NCBI GenBank assembly: GCA_905207905.1
Contig: CAJLNC010000008.1
Span: 1-49,457 of the forward strand
Reading direction: 5' to 3'
DNA length: 49,457 nucleotides
Origin: an uncultured Lachnospiraceae bacterium
Lineage (GTDB): Bacteria > Bacillota_A > Clostridia > Lachnospirales > Lachnospiraceae
The notes under the pieces are model-generated. The model saw nothing but the letters and a program-made list of their open reading frames with translations, was not told the DNA's origin and made no database searches. This document shows, piece by piece, positions 24,365-38,357 of this stretch (within the stretch, counting starts at the first letter, position 1; each line of letters opens with the position of its first letter). The translations under genes and the position numbers were made by a program.

Positions 24365-25561
24365 CTAGCTTCCAAGGCGCATCTTAAAATCCTCATATCC
24401 GAAGCTGCAGATATTTTCCAGCGTTTCATCCGATCGCAGCACCCAGATCCCAGGCAGAGGCATTCCATTAAACGTATTGTTTTTGCAGGTTGTATAAATT
24501 GCCATATCTCCGAAGATCAGCCGTTCTCCCTCCTCAAGGGGATGATCAAAGCTGTAATCCCCCACCACGTCTCCAGAGAGACAGGTAGGGCCTCCAAGGC
24601 GATAGGTAAAAGGCTTCTCTCCTCTTTCTCCTGCTCCGTAAAGAGGAGGCAGATAGGGCATCTCAATCACATCTGGAGTGTGACAGGCAGCGCTCATATC
24701 CAGAATGGCCAAACGTGTCTCCCCGTTTTGCGGAAGATCCAGCACAGTAGTCATGAGATACCCTGCATTCAGCGCCCAGGCCTCTCCAGGCTCCAGATAG
24801 ACCTCCACTTGCCAAAGCTCCTTCGCTCTGTGGATACACCTCTCCAGCCGGGAAATATCATAACCTTCACGGGTAATATGGTGTCCCCCGCCAAAATTCA
24901 GCCACTTCATCTTTGGGAGAATCTCTCCAAAAGATGCTTCCACTGCCTCCAGAGTGGTCTCAAGGGCATCCGAATCCTGCTCACACAGTGTATGAAAATG
25001 CAGCCCATCCAAAAGTGCTGTCAGCTCTGGAGTCATCCTTTCCTCCCACTGAGCCCGGGTAGTTCCAAGGCGGCTGCCCGGGGCACAGGGATCGTAGATC
25101 TCATGATCCTCCTGTGTGGAACATTCCGGGTTAATCCGAAGTCCCAGGCTTCGTCCTGCGGCCTTTGCCTTTGGCCCGAACTTTTCTAACTGCCTGGGTG
25201 AATTAAACACAATATGATCCGCATACTGCAAGATCTCCTGAAAGTCCGCTTCCCGGTAGGCCGCTGAAAATACATGAATCTCTCCTGACGGCATTTCTTC
25301 TTTTCCCAGTCGTGCCTCATAAAGGCCGCTGGCTTCCGTTCCTGCCAGATATGGAGCCAGTGCCGGATACAGATCATAATTGGAAAAAGCTTTCTGCGCC
25401 AGCAAGAGCCTGGCTCCCGTATTCCTGGCAACAGCCCCCAGAATCTCTCCATTCTGTCTCAGTCTGGCCTCATCCAGAACATAGCAGGGCGTGGGAAGCT
25501 TCTCAAACAATTTCTCTGGATGACGAAGAAATGCAAAAGGCGGACGTTGATCCTGCATCAT
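24365..25561 (-). CDS. nspC: Carboxynorspermidine/carboxyspermidine decarboxylase
   Basis: 398 aa, alanine-racemase-fold PLP decarboxylase. The PLP lysine is Lys57 in LLLAQKAFSNYDLYPAL. Phosphate-binding FGGGHHIT, HFHTLCEQ, the EPGEAW segment and the catalytic cysteine in MSAACHTPDV match NspC. It decarboxylates carboxy(nor)spermidine to (nor)spermidine, the last step of the aspartate-semialdehyde route. The start is one of two adjacent ATGs (25561 or 25558), one base after the TGA of the dehydrogenase gene, which implies translational coupling. The open frame extends 38 codons further upstream inside the preceding gene and is ignored. Confidence 0.93.
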   Translation of the reverse strand: MMQDQRPPFAFLRHPEKLFEKLPTPCYVLDEARLRQNGEILGAVARNTGARLLLAQKAFSNYDLYPALAPYLAGTEASGLYEARLGKEEMPSGEIHVFSAAYREADFQEILQYADHIVFNSPRQLEKFGPKAKAAGRSLGLRINPECSTQEDHEIYDPCAPGSRLGTTRAQWEERMTPELTALLDGLHFHTLCEQDSDALETTLEAVEASFGEILPKMKWLNFGGGHHITREGYDISRLERCIHRAKELWQVEVYLEPGEAWALNAGYLMTTVLDLPQNGETRLAILDMSAACHTPDVIEMPYLPPLYGAGERGEKPFTYRLGGPTCLSGDVVGDYSFDHPLEEGERLIFGDMAIYTTCKNNTFNGMPLPGIWVLRSDETLENICSFGYEDFKMRLGS

Positions 25562-25562
25562 A

Positions 25563-26822
25563 TCAGTCCACCAGCGCAGGATGATGAGACACGCTTCTTG
25601 GCAGTCCGTAACGATCCAACGCCTCCAGGAAGGGATCCGGGTCAAACTCCTCCACCGTATGAACCCCCTTGGCATCCCACTTTCCGGTAAGCAGCATCAG
25701 CGCGCCGCACATGGCAGGTACACCGGTGGTATAGCTGATAGCCTGGGAACCCACCTCCCGATAGCATTCCTGATGATCACACACATTATAAATATAGAAA
25801 GTCTTCTCTTTTCCATCCTTCTTTCCGGTGAAGATACAGCCGATATTGGTCTTTCCGTGGGTTCTTGGCCCAAGGCTGGCCGGATCCGGAAGAAGAGCCT
25901 TCAAAAACTGAATCGGAACGATCTCTTTTCCTTCAAAAAGCACTGGCGTTGTGGAGAGCATGCCCACATTCTCCAGACACTTCATGTGGGTGAGATAACT
26001 CTGACCGAATGTCATAAAGAAACGGATACGCTTTGCTTCCGGAATATTCTGGGCAATGGACTCAATCTCCTCATGATGGAGCAGATACATGTCTTTCTGT
26101 CCCACCTGGTCAAAATTATACTCCCGCTTTATGGTCATAGGCGGTATCTCTACCCAACGGCCGTTCTCCCAGTAACTGCCCGGTGCAGATACCTCCCGCA
26201 GATTGATCTCAGGATTAAAATTCGTTGCAAAAGGATAACCGTGATCGCCTCCGTTACAGTCCAGAATGTCAATGGTGTCAATGGTATCAAACTCATGCTT
26301 CTTTGCATAAGCGCAGTAAGCCTGGGTTACACCCGGGTCAAAACCACAGCCCAGAAGAGCCGTAAGCCCGGCCTCCTCAAAACGTTTGCGGTATGCCCAC
26401 TGCCAGGAGTAATCGAAATACGCCGAAAAGCCAGCCTCCTTGCAGCGCTTTTCATAGATCGCCCTCCACTGGGGATCATTGGTATCTTCCGGCTCATAGT
26501 TCGCGGTATCCATATAGTTTACACGGCAGCGCAGACAGGCTTCCATAATCGTCAGATCCTGATAAGGCAATGCGATATTCATCACCAGATCCGGCTGATA
26601 GCTCTCGATCAGAGCAGCTACCTGCTCCACATCATCTGCATCCACCTGAGCTGTGGTGATTCTGGTGCTGGTCTTAGGTGCCAGCTCCTCTGCCAGACGG
26701 TCGCATTTCTCCTTGGTTCTGCTGGCAATGCACAGCTCCGTAAACACCTGGCTGACCTGACAGCATTTATGGATTGCCACAGACGCTACACCGCCGCAAC
26801 CGATCACTAATACTCTACTCAT
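25563..26822 (-). CDS. Carboxynorspermidine dehydrogenase (saccharopine dehydrogenase family)
   Basis: 419 aa. Rossmann motif VLVIGCGGVAS is at the N-terminus, then the saccharopine-dehydrogenase-type core ALLGCGFDPGVTQAYCAYA, DTIDILDCNGGDHGYPFATN and YTTGVPAMCGALMLLTGKW. This family (CANSDH/CASDH, LYS1-like) condenses putrescine or diaminopropane, possibly agmatine-derived amines, with aspartate beta-semialdehyde using NADPH to give carboxy(nor)spermidine. AGGAGG precedes the ATG. It is followed immediately by nspC. A long antisense frame covers the gene but shows no family features. Confidence 0.93.
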   Translation of the reverse strand: MSRVLVIGCGGVASVAIHKCCQVSQVFTELCIASRTKEKCDRLAEELAPKTSTRITTAQVDADDVEQVAALIESYQPDLVMNIALPYQDLTIMEACLRCRVNYMDTANYEPEDTNDPQWRAIYEKRCKEAGFSAYFDYSWQWAYRKRFEEAGLTALLGCGFDPGVTQAYCAYAKKHEFDTIDTIDILDCNGGDHGYPFATNFNPEINLREVSAPGSYWENGRWVEIPPMTIKREYNFDQVGQKDMYLLHHEEIESIAQNIPEAKRIRFFMTFGQSYLTHMKCLENVGMLSTTPVLFEGKEIVPIQFLKALLPDPASLGPRTHGKTNIGCIFTGKKDGKEKTFYIYNVCDHQECYREVGSQAISYTTGVPAMCGALMLLTGKWDAKGVHTVEEFDPDPFLEALDRYGLPRSVSHHPALVD

Positions 26823-26967: not shown

Positions 26968-27009
26968 GTATCCGGGATTAGGGTATCAAAAGCCCTATTA
27001 CACGGATGC
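26968..27009. repeat. Family E palindrome, copy 4, inside the polyamine operon
   Basis: GTATCCGGGATTAGGG pairs with CCCTATTACACGGATGC around a 9-base loop. The right end has the CACGGATGC terminus of family E. It starts at the agmatinase stop codon and occupies the otherwise gene-free gap before the dehydrogenase gene. No T-run follows, so read-through is expected; it may stabilise or process the operon mRNA. Confidence 0.5.
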
Positions 27010-27878
27010 TATCCTCTTCTCCTTAAAATCGCCAGCAAAAGCTCTCTGAGTACTTTGCAGGCTGTGGCTGTAGATACCCCGGACGGATCCAGCATAGGAG
27101 CCAGTTCATTCACATCTGCGCCAACGATCCTGCATTCACTCACCTGATAGACCGCTTCCACAAGCTGTAAAAAGGAAAGACCGCCCGCTTCCGGTGTACC
27201 GGTTCCAGGAAATACCGAAGGATCCAGACAATCCAGATCAATCGTAAGGTATACTGGAGTATTATTTTCTTTCAGCTTCCGTACAGTCTCCTCAAGCCCT
27301 TCCAGTGTCAGCGGATGAAAATCCGTATGTTCCATAGCAAACCGAAATTCCTCCCGGTCTCCGCTGCGAATACCAAACTGATGGATCCGTCCATCTCCCA
27401 CAAGCTCATGGCAGCGCCGCAGCACACAAGCATGGCTGAGCTTCGCTCCAAGATAATCGTCCCGAAGATCTGCATGAGCATCAAAGTGAAGGATTTGCAC
27501 TTGGGGATAATGACGCAAGACTGCCCGAAAACTTCCAAGCGTTACCAGATGTTCCCCTCCAAGAAGCAGGGGAAGTTTTCCATCCTGCAAAATTCGTTCT
27601 GTCCGCTCCTCAATAGCACACAGCGCCCTTTCTGTACTTCCAAAACACAGTTCTATATCTCCGCTGTCAAATACTCTGTAATCCGTAAGATCTGCATCCT
27701 GATAGGGGCTGTAAGTTTCTAAGCCAAAACTTTCATGCCGCATGGCCGCGGAACCGAACCGTGCTCCGGGCCGGAAGGATGTGGTAGAATCAAAGGGTGC
27801 GCCAAACAGCACAATGGCAGCCTCCTCATAAGGAGCATCACAGCCGATAAACGTCTCAACATTCTGTTCCATAGCCAT
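27009..27878 (-). CDS. speB: Agmatinase (ureohydrolase family)
   Basis: 289 aa, arginase/agmatinase family. The di-manganese site is seen in GGEH (107-110), HFDAHADLRD (131-140) and YLTIDLDCLDPSVFPGTGT, with the PEAGG turn after it. It hydrolyses agmatine to putrescine and urea, or aminopropylagmatine to spermidine. The start is at an ATGATG pair overlapping the speE stop codon. The second ATG (27878) is chosen because GGAGG is then 7 bases away; ATG 27881 would give a 4-base overlap. The gene uses the product of the arginine decarboxylase encoded two genes upstream. Confidence 0.93.
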   Translation of the reverse strand: MAMEQNVETFIGCDAPYEEAAIVLFGAPFDSTTSFRPGARFGSAAMRHESFGLETYSPYQDADLTDYRVFDSGDIELCFGSTERALCAIEERTERILQDGKLPLLLGGEHLVTLGSFRAVLRHYPQVQILHFDAHADLRDDYLGAKLSHACVLRRCHELVGDGRIHQFGIRSGDREEFRFAMEHTDFHPLTLEGLEETVRKLKENNTPVYLTIDLDCLDPSVFPGTGTPEAGGLSFLQLVEAVYQVSECRIVGADVNELAPMLDPSGVSTATACKVLRELLLAILRRRG

Positions 27879-28729
27879 CATTCCACCTCCAAAAGCATTT
27901 CTTCCAGAAAAGCCGGAAGCGCAAAAGCGCCTGTATGAAGCCGGGTCGTGTAGTAGCGGGTCCGCAGATTCTGTTTCTCCCATTCCTCCACATTCAGATC
28001 ATTAATGGGATGGTATTTCTTGCTGGCAAAGCCGAACAGCCAGTAACCTGCCGCATAAGTGGGAATGTGGGCCTGATACACCTTACTGATAGGAAAGGTG
28101 TTCACGATCCGTTTGTGACTGCGTTTCATAGCCTCAGCATCCTCCGCATAGAAAGGACTGCCCTGCTGATTCACCATGATGCCGTCCTCCCTCAGGGCAT
28201 TATAACAGTTTCCATAAAACTCTCTGGTAAACAATCCCTCGGAAGGGCCGAACGGATCCGTCGAATCCACAATGATCAGATCGTAGGCAGCCTCCCTGTT
28301 CCGAATAAATCGAAGTGCATTTTCAAAATAAATGTGCACCCTCCGATCATCCATCCGGCAGGCATTCCCCGGCAAAAACTTCCGGCATGCCTCCACCACC
28401 TGAGGATCCATCTCCACCAGATCAATGCGGCGTACCCTGTCATACCGTGTCAGCTCCCGCACCACGCCGCCGTCTCCGGCTCCGATCACCAGAATATCCC
28501 GAACCCCGGGATGCACCGCCATGGGCACATGGGTAATCATCTCATCATAAATAAATTCATCCCGCTCCGTCAGCATCACATTTCCATCCAGAACCAGCAC
28601 CCGGCCAAATTCCGGCGTCTCAAAAATATCGATCTGTTGATAATCGCTTTTCTGAGCATAGAGATGTCTGGTGACGCGCAGCGAATGTTTCACATCCTTT
28701 GTATGAAACTCACTGAACCACATTTCCAT
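27878..28729 (-). CDS. speE: Spermidine synthase (polyamine aminopropyltransferase)
   Basis: 283 aa. The N-terminal beta domain (ETPEFGRVLVLDGNVMLTERDEFIYDEM) and the Rossmann core VIGAGDGGVVREL (81-93) with LIIVDSTDPFGPSEGLF are diagnostic. It transfers an aminopropyl group from decarboxylated SAM to putrescine or agmatine. The true start is the ATG at 28729 with GGGAGG 8 bases upstream; the frame is open 55 codons further back inside speA. No SAM decarboxylase (speD) is in the window, so the donor must come from elsewhere. The stop codon overlaps the agmatinase start. Confidence 0.93.
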   Translation of the reverse strand: MEMWFSEFHTKDVKHSLRVTRHLYAQKSDYQQIDIFETPEFGRVLVLDGNVMLTERDEFIYDEMITHVPMAVHPGVRDILVIGAGDGGVVRELTRYDRVRRIDLVEMDPQVVEACRKFLPGNACRMDDRRVHIYFENALRFIRNREAAYDLIIVDSTDPFGPSEGLFTREFYGNCYNALREDGIMVNQQGSPFYAEDAEAMKRSHKRIVNTFPISKVYQAHIPTYAAGYWLFGFASKKYHPINDLNVEEWEKQNLRTRYYTTRLHTGAFALPAFLEEMLLEVE

Positions 28730-28746: not shown

Positions 28747-30201
28747 TTACTTTAAAACATTCAGCCGGAAAATATCCGGATCCTCCGGCCCGGTCATACT
28801 GCAGCCTTTTTCCTTGGCGAACTGGATATAATCCAGTATTTCTGCTGTGATCCGCTCCCCTGGAGCCAGGATCGGAATCCCCGGCGGATAGCACATCACA
28901 AATTCACTGCACACCTGTCCTTTTGTTTCCTCAAGGGGCAGGCTTATCTTTTCGGCATAAAAAGCTTCCTGCGGCGAAGTCACTACAATCGGGTCAATGT
29001 ACTCCTGCTTCAGAAGATCTGAACTGTCCCTTTGATACCGGCGGCGAATCTCCGCCAGAGCGCTCACCAACCGCTCCACCTCCTGAATCCGATCTCCCAT
29101 AGACAAATATGCCAGAATATTTCCGATATCTCCAAACTCAATCTGGATGTCATACTCATCCCGAAGGATATCATATACCTCGATCCCTGCAAGACCGATA
29201 TTTCTGGTATTGATCGACAACTTTGTAGGATCAAAGTCAAACACAGAATTACCGTTGCAAAGTTCCTTGCCAAAGGCATAGTATCCTCCAATAGCGTTCA
29301 CTTCTTCCCTGGCGTATTCTGCCATATCTTCCACCTGATGAAACACCTGACGCCCGCGAGTAGCCAGATTTCTTCTGGAAATATCCAGGCTGCTCATCAG
29401 CAGATAATTGCCGGAGGTGGTCTGGGTCAGATTGATGATCTGACGCACATATCCCGCATGAACTCCCGGCCCGCACAGCAGCAGACTGGACTGAGTCAGG
29501 CTTCCGCCGCTCTTGTGCATGGAGACAGCAGCCATATCTGCTCCTGCCTCCATGGCAGACACCGGCATAGCTGTCCCGAAATAAAAATGAGTTCCATGGG
29601 CCTCGTCTGCCAGACACAGCATCCCTGCCTCATGAGCCATCCTCACGATGGCCCGAAGGTCGGAACAAACGCCATAATAGGTGGGATTATTCACCAGCAC
29701 TGCCACCGCATTGGGATGTCCCTCAATCGCTTTTTTCAGGCTCTCCCTGGTCATCCCAAGAGAAATACCCAATTGCTGATCCACATCCGGATTTACATAC
29801 ACTGGCACAGCGCCACACAGCACCAGGGCATTGATCACACTGCGATGGACATTGCGGGGAAGTATAATTTCATCTCCCCGTTTACAAGCGGTCAGTACCA
29901 TACTCTGCACGGAGCTTGTGGTTCCCCCCACCATCAAAAAGGCATGGGCTGCCCCAAAGGCATCTGCTGCCAGCTCCTCAGCCTCCCGAATTACAGAAAC
30001 GGGATGACACAGATTATCCAAAGGTTTCATACTGTTGACATCTAAATTGACGCACTTTTCTCCCAGAAAGGCGGTCAGCTCAGGATTTCCCCGGCCTCGC
30101 TTATGCCCGGGCACATCAAAGGGTACGACCCGCATCTGCCGGAAACGCTCCAGCGCCTCATAGATCGGGGCGCGGCTTTGATCCAGTTTCATCTTTTTCA
30201 C
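28747..30201 (-). CDS. speA: Arginine/lysine/ornithine decarboxylase, PLP fold I
   Basis: 484 aa, the size of the short Firmicutes SpeA-type decarboxylases without the E. coli wing domain. Motifs: PFDVPGHKRGRG, FGAAHAFLMVGGTTSSVQSM, NNPTYYGVCSDL, ADEAHGTHFYF and the PLP lysine Lys230 in SMHKSGGSLTQSS. With agmatinase downstream, arginine is the most likely substrate, giving agmatine. The start is taken as GTG at 30201, 5 bases after GGAGG; the ATG three codons later would be 13 or more bases away. It is the first gene of the polyamine operon, preceded by a long structured leader and terminator at 30271-30637. Confidence 0.9.
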   Translation of the reverse strand: MKKMKLDQSRAPIYEALERFRQMRVVPFDVPGHKRGRGNPELTAFLGEKCVNLDVNSMKPLDNLCHPVSVIREAEELAADAFGAAHAFLMVGGTTSSVQSMVLTACKRGDEIILPRNVHRSVINALVLCGAVPVYVNPDVDQQLGISLGMTRESLKKAIEGHPNAVAVLVNNPTYYGVCSDLRAIVRMAHEAGMLCLADEAHGTHFYFGTAMPVSAMEAGADMAAVSMHKSGGSLTQSSLLLCGPGVHAGYVRQIINLTQTTSGNYLLMSSLDISRRNLATRGRQVFHQVEDMAEYAREEVNAIGGYYAFGKELCNGNSVFDFDPTKLSINTRNIGLAGIEVYDILRDEYDIQIEFGDIGNILAYLSMGDRIQEVERLVSALAEIRRRYQRDSSDLLKQEYIDPIVVTSPQEAFYAEKISLPLEETKGQVCSEFVMCYPPGIPILAPGERITAEILDYIQFAKEKGCSMTGPEDPDIFRLNVLK

Positions 30202-30270
30202 AAAAACCTCCTTCTCCTGTACTATAGCGCCCTGCTGCTTGCTTTGCCCTGAAAAAACCGATTTCCAGCA

Positions 30271-30307
30271 AAAAAACGCAGGATGCGCTATGCACATACC
30301 TGCGTTT
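30271..30307 (-). terminator. Intrinsic terminator in the speA leader
   Basis: On the minus strand AAACGCAGG pairs with CCTGCGTTT around a partly paired 16-base loop, followed directly by TTTT. It sits about 70 nt before the speA start codon, so transcripts from the upstream promoter must pass it to express the polyamine genes. That is the layout of a transcription attenuator. Confidence 0.8.
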
Positions 30308-30637
30308 ATGATCTGCCAAAACAAACCCCGGATACAAAAGCATAAAAGGACTTCTGAAATCAGGGCTTCTGCCAGGGGAACGGATGAGAGTCTATATAGC
30401 AATCATACTTTTACTACTCTTATTGACCGTTTCGCAAGTTTGTGCTTTTAACACCAGTTCCATTCCGGAACCACTTGGGAAATTGAGCTTTTAACTCAAT
30501 CAATGAGATACAGCGAAAGCTGCGTGCGAGTTTATACCCCGCATCGGCTAATGACCCGGCTGTCCGTTCGGCCTTACTTCTCTGAAAGAGAAGGGTCAAA
30601 TATCTGTACGGAAAACCAAAATTTCCCGCACTTTTTC
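30271..30637 (-). ncRNA. Structured leader or small RNA upstream of the polyamine operon (class unrecognised)
   Basis: From a predicted start near 30637, about 367 nt run to the terminator. In order along the RNA: a 10-bp hairpin GUGCGGGAAA / UUUUCCGUAC; a GACCC...GGGUC domain containing CUUCUCU-UUC-AGAGAAG; a GAUGCGGGG segment with hairpin CAGC-UUUC-GCUG; a hairpin AUUGAGU-UAAAA-GCUCAAU; a CAAGU...ACUUG junction enclosing GUUCC-GGAAU-GGAAC and GUG-UUAAAA-GCAC; then GAGU...ACUC and the terminator. Two hairpins share GUUAAAAGC. I compared it by eye with lysine, T-box, SAM, FMN, TPP, cobalamin, purine, glycine, guanidine, c-di-GMP, ydaO and 6S RNA patterns and recognised none. It could be a riboswitch for the operon or a free-standing RNA. 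Confidence 0.65.
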
Positions 30638-30643
30638 GTTGTG

Positions 30644-30671
30644 ATTATAAAGAAAAAAATGGTAATGTCAA
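30644..30671 (-). promoter_or_regulatory. Consensus promoter of the speA leader
   Basis: On the minus strand a perfect TTGACA (30671-30666), a 16-base spacer and a perfect TATAAT (30649-30644). It is the best promoter match in the window and points into the structured leader. Confidence 0.85.
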
Positions 30672-37472: not shown

Positions 37473-38357
37473 TTAAAGGAGACCGTAGCGCTCCATGGCC
37501 GCTTTCAGGCGCTCCACATTCTTTTCTTCCATCTCACAAAGCGGTCCGCGCATGGGCCCTGCATTTTTCCCCATAAGATTCAAAGCGGTCTTCACGGGAA
37601 TGGGGTTCACCTCGCAGAACAGGGCGTCGATCAGCTCCACTGCCTCCAGCTGCAGCTGACAGCTTCGCTCCACATCTCCGGCCAGATAGGAAGCCACGAT
37701 CTCATGGGTCTGTCTGGGCGCCACATTGGACAGAACAGAAATCACGCCCTTGCCCCCAAGAGACAGGATGGGAACGATCTGATCATCATTTCCAGAATAC
37801 AGATCAATCTTTCCCTTTGCCAGGCTCATCAGTTTTGCCACCTGGGAAATATTCCCGCTGGCTTCTTTGATGCCCACAATATTCTCCACATGCTCTGCCA
37901 GCCATACTGCAGTCTCCGGAAGAATATTGGTGCCGGTTCTGCTGGGCACATTATAAAGAATCACCGGAATCTTTACAGAATTGGCAATCTTGCTAAAATG
38001 CAGCTTCAGTCCCTTCTGAGTGGCCTTATTATAATAAGGAGTCACCAAAAGCAGTCCGTCTGCGCCATATTTCTCTGCTTCCTGGGACAGATAAACTGCT
38101 GTCTCCGTACAATTAGAACCAGTACCTGCCACCACCGGAATCCGTTTTGCCACTTTGTCAATGGCGTACCGGATCACCTCCAGATGCTCCTCATGGGTCA
38201 GGGTAGAAGATTCCCCGGTAGTTCCACAGATGATGATGGCATCCGTTCCTCCAGCGATCTGCTCCTCCAAAAGCTCCCCCAGCTTATCAAAATTTACCGC
38301 TCCGTCTTCATACATCGGTGTAACAATGGCCACACCAGCCCCTTGAAATACTGCCAT
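37473..38357 (-). CDS. dapA: 4-hydroxy-tetrahydrodipicolinate synthase
   Basis: 294 aa, class I aldolase TIM barrel. Motifs: GAGVAIVTPMYEDGAVNF, IICGTTGESSTLTHEEH, the proton-relay Tyr in VILYNVPSRTGTNI and the Schiff-base Lys in NIVGIKEASGNISQ (about residue 164). It condenses pyruvate with aspartate semialdehyde. ATG 38357 follows AAGGAGG; an earlier ATG in frame lies inside the terminator hairpin and is rejected. It is first in the lysine operon, behind the riboswitch. Confidence 0.96.
   Translation of the reverse strand: MAVFQGAGVAIVTPMYEDGAVNFDKLGELLEEQIAGGTDAIIICGTTGESSTLTHEEHLEVIRYAIDKVAKRIPVVAGTGSNCTETAVYLSQEAEKYGADGLLLVTPYYNKATQKGLKLHFSKIANSVKIPVILYNVPSRTGTNILPETAVWLAEHVENIVGIKEASGNISQVAKLMSLAKGKIDLYSGNDDQIVPILSLGGKGVISVLSNVAPRQTHEIVASYLAGDVERSCQLQLEAVELIDALFCEVNPIPVKTALNLMGKNAGPMRGPLCEMEEKNVERLKAAMERYGLL

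Follow-up and report, generated by a model that had tools for sequence, protein, structure and literature searches.

The 49,457-nt stretch of DNA analysed here (the window), from an uncultured Lachnospiraceae bacterium, carries a long non-coding leader ahead of a polyamine operon that begins with speA. The locus raises the question of how this RNA acts, what it might sense and whether its class is already known. A first-pass annotation, made from the letters alone, had described a perfect TTGACA-16-TATAAT promoter, a structured leader of about 370 nt and an intrinsic terminator some 70 nt before speA, and all of these were confirmed (Table 1). The leader folds to -126.7 kcal/mol, compared with -98.1 +/- 5.5 kcal/mol for 100 shuffles (z -5.24), and the likely GTG start of speA at 30201 lies about 70 nt past the terminator, directly behind a ribosome-binding site.

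The same layout recurs in relatives. A promoter-like site with at least 10/12 matches is found upstream of the RNA in 85/103 loci and within 130 nt past the core in 1/103, and the mean best promoter score upstream of the RNA is 10.4, against 7.9 in shuffles. A terminator-like hairpin is present in 122 of the 126 representative leaders, with a few being weak or inside the gene (L009, L048, L052, L120).

Table 1. Features of the leader and of the operon downstream, in window coordinates.
Feature	Position	Strand	Basis or remark
Sigma-70 type promoter, TTGACA-16-TATAAT	30644..30671	-	consensus matches 12/12
Whole leader RNA, presumed start to terminator U tract	30268..30637	-	start inferred from promoter
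RF02440 SpF59 subdomain: GACC..GGUC closing stem, hairpin, conserved ACGGACAG loop	30544..30598	-	57.1 bits
Inner helix GGC/GCC in SpF59 subdomain	30558..30573	-	unpaired in Rfam model
Two linker hairpins, SpF59 subdomain to core	30511..30543	-	fold and alignments by eye
Conserved core (model R1): P2, P3, P4/P5/P6 three-way junction, P7	30387..30507	-	101.3 bits to R1 (window among training rows)
Switch strand GCACAAACUUGCG: P6 3' arm and P4 3' strand	30433..30445	-	pairs in core or with terminator 5' arm
Terminator 5' arm CGCAGGUAUGUGC, antiterminator partner	30292..30304	-	
Intrinsic terminator: stem 30306-30275, then U tract	30268..30306	-	-19.6 kcal/mol
Ribosome-binding site GGAGAAGGAGG	30207..30217	-	sequence
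speA-type Orn/Lys/Arg decarboxylase, likely GTG start	28747..30201	-	PF01276, E 1.3e-68
speE, spermidine synthase	27878..28729	-	TIGR00417 307.9 bits, cut-off 249.55
speB, agmatinase; start uncertain, overlaps speE	27009..27983	-	TIGR01230 276.5 bits (27932-27009), cut-off 174.3
Carboxy(nor)spermidine dehydrogenase, saccharopine-dehydrogenase family	25563..26822	-	NF043000 414.2 bits (below cut-off 800); PF16653, PF03435
nspC, carboxynorspermidine decarboxylase; start uncertain	24365..25597	-	TIGR01047 423.3 bits, cut-off 409.05

Elsewhere in the window, a Lysine riboswitch (38600-38426, minus strand; RF00168, 104.3 bits) is followed by a terminator-like hairpin and then by a gene starting near 38357, presumably dapA.

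Conserved core, outer helix and SpF59 subdomain

The leader was compared with the best 80 of 592 speA loci. In 57 of these 80, the motif GGACAGCCGGG occurs no more than 600 nt ahead of speA, and conservation in the leader alignment spans some 240 nt. A covariance model of the core (R1; 124 positions, 38 pairs) was trained on an alignment of 57 rows (A1), and it matches the window and 75 of the 80 speA loci, 56 of which are training rows; the window sequence is itself a training row. Five of the best 80 of 592 loci gave no R1 core match upstream of speA (L029, L040, L051, L069, L074), and their speA may be regulated otherwise. L069 seems to retain a core remnant.

The leaders of relatives share a conserved structure, with P3, P5 and P6 covarying strongly. 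Over 100 relatives, counted without the window, 96.4% of core pair cells are paired, against 29-47% in slid controls, in an alignment that is fitted to the model and hence biased towards R1. Double-sided changes occur in 26/38 core pairs, compared with 7.8 +/- 1.7 in shuffles (0/500 as high), and the doubly changed cells number 129, against 26.9. Per pair, 5-29 sequences are doubly changed in P6, 3-6 in P5, 2-6 in P3 and up to 4 in P7a; P2, P4 and P7b hardly vary, and a double change there is confined to a single sequence. A first, narrower core alignment had given 7 doubly changed pairs, against 1.9.

Two details of the fold described at first fared differently. The CAAGU...ACUUG three-way junction was confirmed: the strands 30478-30473 and 30439-30433 form P4, which encloses P5 and P6. 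The sequence GUUAAAAGC, common to the P3 and P6 hairpins, is no family feature, and its reading as a meaningful repeat was rejected, P6 varying freely in sequence among relatives. A universal closing stem P1 (5' AGAGUC with 3' GACUCU) was likewise rejected, since inspection by eye showed it at some loci only; P7 and a variable outer helix occur more generally.

This outer helix is formed by the 5' and 3' flanks of the RNA. In 105 of the 126 representatives (the motif was not found in the remainder), flanks pair at -30.1 kcal/mol when matched and at -24.2 kcal/mol when mismatched (z -14.2), and the own partner ranks in the best 5% for 30/105. The window's own outer helix is unsupported (-17.1 kcal/mol, rank 0.70), and its segment 30637-30599 (minus strand) forms a local hairpin (GUGCGGGAAA..UUUUCCGUAC) in place of the 5' strand; for lack of that support, the window's leader may be a weakened member of the family. 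P7a crosses the inner part of the outer helix, an overlap that suggests a pseudoknot or a switch. In L087, L101 and L102, AUGUAUAUCRA directly ahead of the terminator offers a second pairing partner to UUGAUAUACAU, the outer helix's 3' strand, and the two might form one more switch helix in this clade.

The leader had been called unclassified, and a search of Rfam bears this out for the core, which has no match there, and corrects it for 54 nt of the 5' part. These match RF02440, "SpF59_sRNA (ldcC RNA)", at 57.1 bits (cut-off 37.2, E 1e-7), a family filed as a streptococcal sRNA; no other Rfam family exceeds its cut-off in the window leader. RF02440 was also found at 6/12 and 10/20 related loci in two Rfam scans, which gave no further family over the leaders of these 12 and 20 loci and SAM, c-di-GMP-I and tRNA matches elsewhere in them. 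Among 14 named control genomes, it was found in Lactococcus lactis only.

Among 105 relatives, the inner helix of the subdomain reads GGC/GCC in 86, GCC/GGC in 5 and AGC/GCT in 3, and 11 show no exact partner. In 90 relatives with the exact motif, the bases next to GACC/GGTC are G-C in 47, T-A in 23, C-G in 11, T-G in 2 and not paired in 2, with GACC not found in 5. The swapped GCC/GGC helix was noted in L145, L146 and L149; the operon order is speA then speE in L145, L146, L147 and L149. In aligned relatives, the linker between subdomain and core is by eye mostly one hairpin, of the GGCAAC..GUUGCC or GGCGGC..GCAGCC kind. Five loci (L038, L046, L047, L066, L068) are by eye devoid of the SpF59 part and P3 and keep the P4-P7 region, and the core is therefore the more constant unit.

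The distribution of the RNA was examined with R1 in overlapping genome samples, the large scans being run under stricter filters. Matches were found in 24/398 genomes of a phylum sample around a Candidatus Paralachnospira genome (G001) and in 48/391 of its class sample, in 12/199 and 19/200 of the phylum and class samples around an Acidaminococcus genome, and in 28/299 of the class sample of a genome that is probably a member of the Bacilli. Spread to another phylum was rejected: around a genome titled Desulfovibrionaceae, the single match (1/198) is the central genome itself, perhaps a mis-binned contig.

Terminator, antiterminator and proposed mechanism

One strand of the leader serves both P4/P6 and a pairing with the terminator 5' arm, so the core and this antiterminator are mutually exclusive. 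In the window, GCACA-A-ACUUGCG pairs with CGCAGGU-A-UGUGC (duplex -19.2 kcal/mol, row rank 0.05). A swap of partners among 118 of the 126 representatives (a usable terminator or the motif was not found in the remainder) gave -15.88 kcal/mol for matched and -12.56 kcal/mol for mismatched duplexes (z -15.5). These permutations ignore descent, and equally related control segments are the guard: five other leader segments paired with the terminator arm no better than when permuted (z -1.3 to +1.9), and an interaction of the terminator with other leader parts was rejected on this flat result. The own partner lies in the best 5% in 20/118 leaders and in the best 10% in 32/118 (median rank 0.19). At 17 loci fetched after the hypothesis, several of them close relatives of one another, the values were -14.97 kcal/mol matched and -12.61 kcal/mol permuted (z -3.8, 0/5000 as low), with a poorer-than-average fit in L184 and L194.

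The terminator arm carries a matching signature. CAAG or CAGG is present in it in 82/117 leaders, against 8/114 other terminators drawn exclusively from loci at least 4 kb long; by group, the counts are 59/75 for speA, 14/21 for speD, 6/8 for the dehydrogenase and 3/13 for potA. Taken with the 8 nt before it, the arm complements the P4 3' strand ACUUGUG over at least 6 bases in 88/119 leaders, which 6/500 permuted heptamers equalled. In 28 leaders, as in many of the potA type, the pairing extends in part beyond the terminator stem, and 12/12 potA leaders among the matches listed have a run of at least 5 pairs partly outside it. Individual examples are L127 (UUUUCGUC-G-ACUUGU with ACAAGU-GACGAAAA) and L139 (ACACAUCG-A-CUUGU with ACAAG-CGAUGUGU). 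At the level of sequence, this covariation establishes an antiterminator that excludes P4 and P6.

When the antiterminator is imposed, the fold loses 1.3 kcal/mol in the window and 6.8-20.5 kcal/mol in 18 relatives. Equilibrium energy was accordingly rejected as a proof of switching, as it disfavours the antiterminator in all these leaders, and the folding would need kinetics, help or tertiary effects beyond the energy model.

The leader is probably a riboswitch that acts by transcription attenuation and belongs to an orphan class; its ligand would be a polyamine, most likely spermidine, in whose presence genes of polyamine synthesis or uptake would be turned OFF. We infer that a small molecule binds the RNA and that its binding favours the core fold. 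With ligand, the core would fold, P2 forming around P3 and the P4/P5/P6 junction, and P7 and the SpF59 subdomain would take part; this would leave the terminator 5' arm free, the terminator would form and transcription would stop before speA. When ligand is scarce, the P6-3'/P4-3' strand would instead pair with the terminator 5' arm and polymerase would read on. Because stabilising the core frees the terminator, the result would be an OFF switch, as feedback on synthesis and import would need.

The attenuator could also be read by a protein, such as a polyamine-dependent RNA-binding regulator, and not by the bare metabolite. The antiterminator geometry is compatible with either reader, and the RNA is large and modular, as the five loci devoid of the SpF59 part illustrate. 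This is unlikely, since 89 columns of A1 are conserved over 57 related sequences (40 invariant, 49 at 90% or more) and lie in loops as well as helices, as is usual for aptamers; in passing, no regulator gene was noticed next to the RNA.

Downstream genes and the candidate ligand

Gene context was collected from loci found with the RNA model only, by tblastn with six reference proteins and, for potA, by ORF reading in loci without a hit. The first recognised downstream gene belongs to polyamine synthesis or uptake in 93/93 distinct R1 loci, G001 itself left out: speA in 26, speD (then speA) in 25, carboxy(nor)spermidine dehydrogenase in 28 and potA in 14. A later R1 scan added 17/17 new loci, 15 with speA and 2 with speD, for a total of 110/110. 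Projected gene starts lie 76-319 nt past the core at 79 loci and 48-403 nt past it for potA. All 14 potA proteins exceed the TIGR01187 cut-off, and 9/14 are followed by a permease ORF, which is PotB in L139, where it was checked. Of one example checked for each of the other two groups, the speD of L085 passes TIGR03331 and the dehydrogenase of L087 is NF043000-like and below cut-off.

Synthesis and import genes under one RNA form the regulon expected for end-product feedback. Three of the features looked for in a riboswitch are found here: a conserved structured domain in the 5' leader, a consistent link to one metabolic pathway at all these loci and a platform exclusive with the aptamer fold, the last seen in the covariation and disfavoured by the energies. 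The original proposal of a riboswitch-like attenuator before a polyamine operon is supported by conservation, covariation, gene association and the covarying antiterminator. The same evidence supports a polyamine as the likeliest of the effectors then offered; arginine and agmatine are disfavoured, because the RNA also precedes operons that start with speD, potA or carboxy(nor)spermidine dehydrogenase.

Polyamines have long been expected as riboswitch ligands. AdoMet decarboxylase, the carboxyspermidine route, speA and PotABC converge on spermidine, with putrescine second; judged from these pathways, spermidine would be the metabolite common to the operons, and putrescine is a possible ligand. 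A riboswitch ligand other than spermidine from the same pathway (putrescine, agmatine, arginine or decarboxylated SAM) would fit the loci in which speA, the maker of agmatine or another diamine, comes first (26/93 and 15/17). We regard it as quite unlikely, because arginine and agmatine fail to unite the speD, dehydrogenase and potA operons and spermidine does so.

Relation to the streptococcal sRNA and to known polyamine RNAs

The RNA behind RF02440 has a history in pneumococcus. F59/srn235/SN20 is encoded between SP0915 and SP0916 and shares its strand with SP0916 (PMC3395615), a gene identified as arginine decarboxylase in the title of PMC7531197. The RNA, as srn235/F59/Spd_sr49, is placed at TIGR4 869478-869804 among putative sRNAs listed in 2025 (PMC12323649), and F59 also appears in the list of a review (PMC4387999). 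Rfam types the family as an sRNA gene, and its model covers the optional 5' subdomain only: the core, P7, terminator and antiterminator of the present leader lie outside it, and the inner GGC/GCC helix is drawn unpaired. The position and the antiterminator of the RNA, as read from sequence, point to a cis-acting leader.

A stable small RNA with read-through into speA had been offered as an alternative at first. On such a reading, the main product would be a trans-acting sRNA (SpF59/F59/srn235) and speA would be reached by read-through only; the place of F59 among putative sRNAs, on the strand of SP0916, speaks for it. It is nevertheless very unlikely: the RNA keeps its position before polyamine operons of four kinds, and its switch strand covaries with the terminator, neither of which a trans-acting RNA would need, and a terminated leader would itself appear as such an sRNA. 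Leader-peptide or T-box attenuation, which would share the terminator/antiterminator layout, is extremely unlikely, as ORFs of at least 8 codons preceded by a Shine-Dalgarno sequence occur in 9/122 leaders and not in the window, and the Rfam scans gave no T-box match over the leaders that they covered.

Riboswitch control by a polyamine has a precedent in the spermidine riboswitch, a SAM-I variant whose consensus was drawn from 13 representatives (PMC10853860). It likewise acts OFF, by premature termination before polyamine genes, including ldcC, speB and speE (PMC10853860); its aptamer is of the SAM-I type, whereas the present leader has no match to the SAM families of Rfam. RNA motifs near polyamine genes also include odc1 and potE (PMC8632094), which are set apart by their descriptions: odc1 is small, has a pseudoknot and is tied to a uORF, and potE is a weak candidate at a distance of about 200 nt from its gene. 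The ABC-leader is likewise an attenuator, before potABCD of Haemophilus somnus and Pasteurella multocida (PMC2965389), and differs by description in being reported in Gammaproteobacteria. Among the matches listed from open-licence PMC papers, no description of the present leader as a riboswitch was found, and PMC11109978 and PMC6429828 contain none of the six polyamine-gene terms looked up in them.

The leader is best described as a candidate for a new riboswitch class; the known Rfam fragment inside it is, on this reading, misfiled. On balance, we favour a riboswitch class of wide occurrence whose ligand is spermidine or a close polyamine, placed before speA, speD, carboxy(nor)spermidine dehydrogenase and potA in the samples around Lachnospiraceae-like, probably-Bacilli and Acidaminococcus genomes and hidden as a 54-nt streptococcal sRNA, with a new aptamer unrelated to the SAM-I-derived spermidine riboswitch. 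The authors who described that variant held that further polyamine classes surely await discovery (PMC10853860). If the present reading is right, this would be a far commoner and architecturally distinct polyamine riboswitch, judging by its frequency in the phylum and class samples around G001. A single sensor would then serve polyamine synthesis and uptake in gut Clostridia-type bacteria, and the pneumococcal "sRNA" would be re-filed as a terminated leader.

The potA-type members show some peculiarities of their own. Their cores in L139, L140, L142, L143 and L148 have a short P7 with a loop starting ACGCG (e.g. AGAGUACGCGUAUCAAACUCU in L142), and this near-palindromic loop might serve dimerisation or other binding. 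In L150 (G691:C99), two R1 matches lie about 280 nt apart before potA, possibly a tandem or split arrangement.
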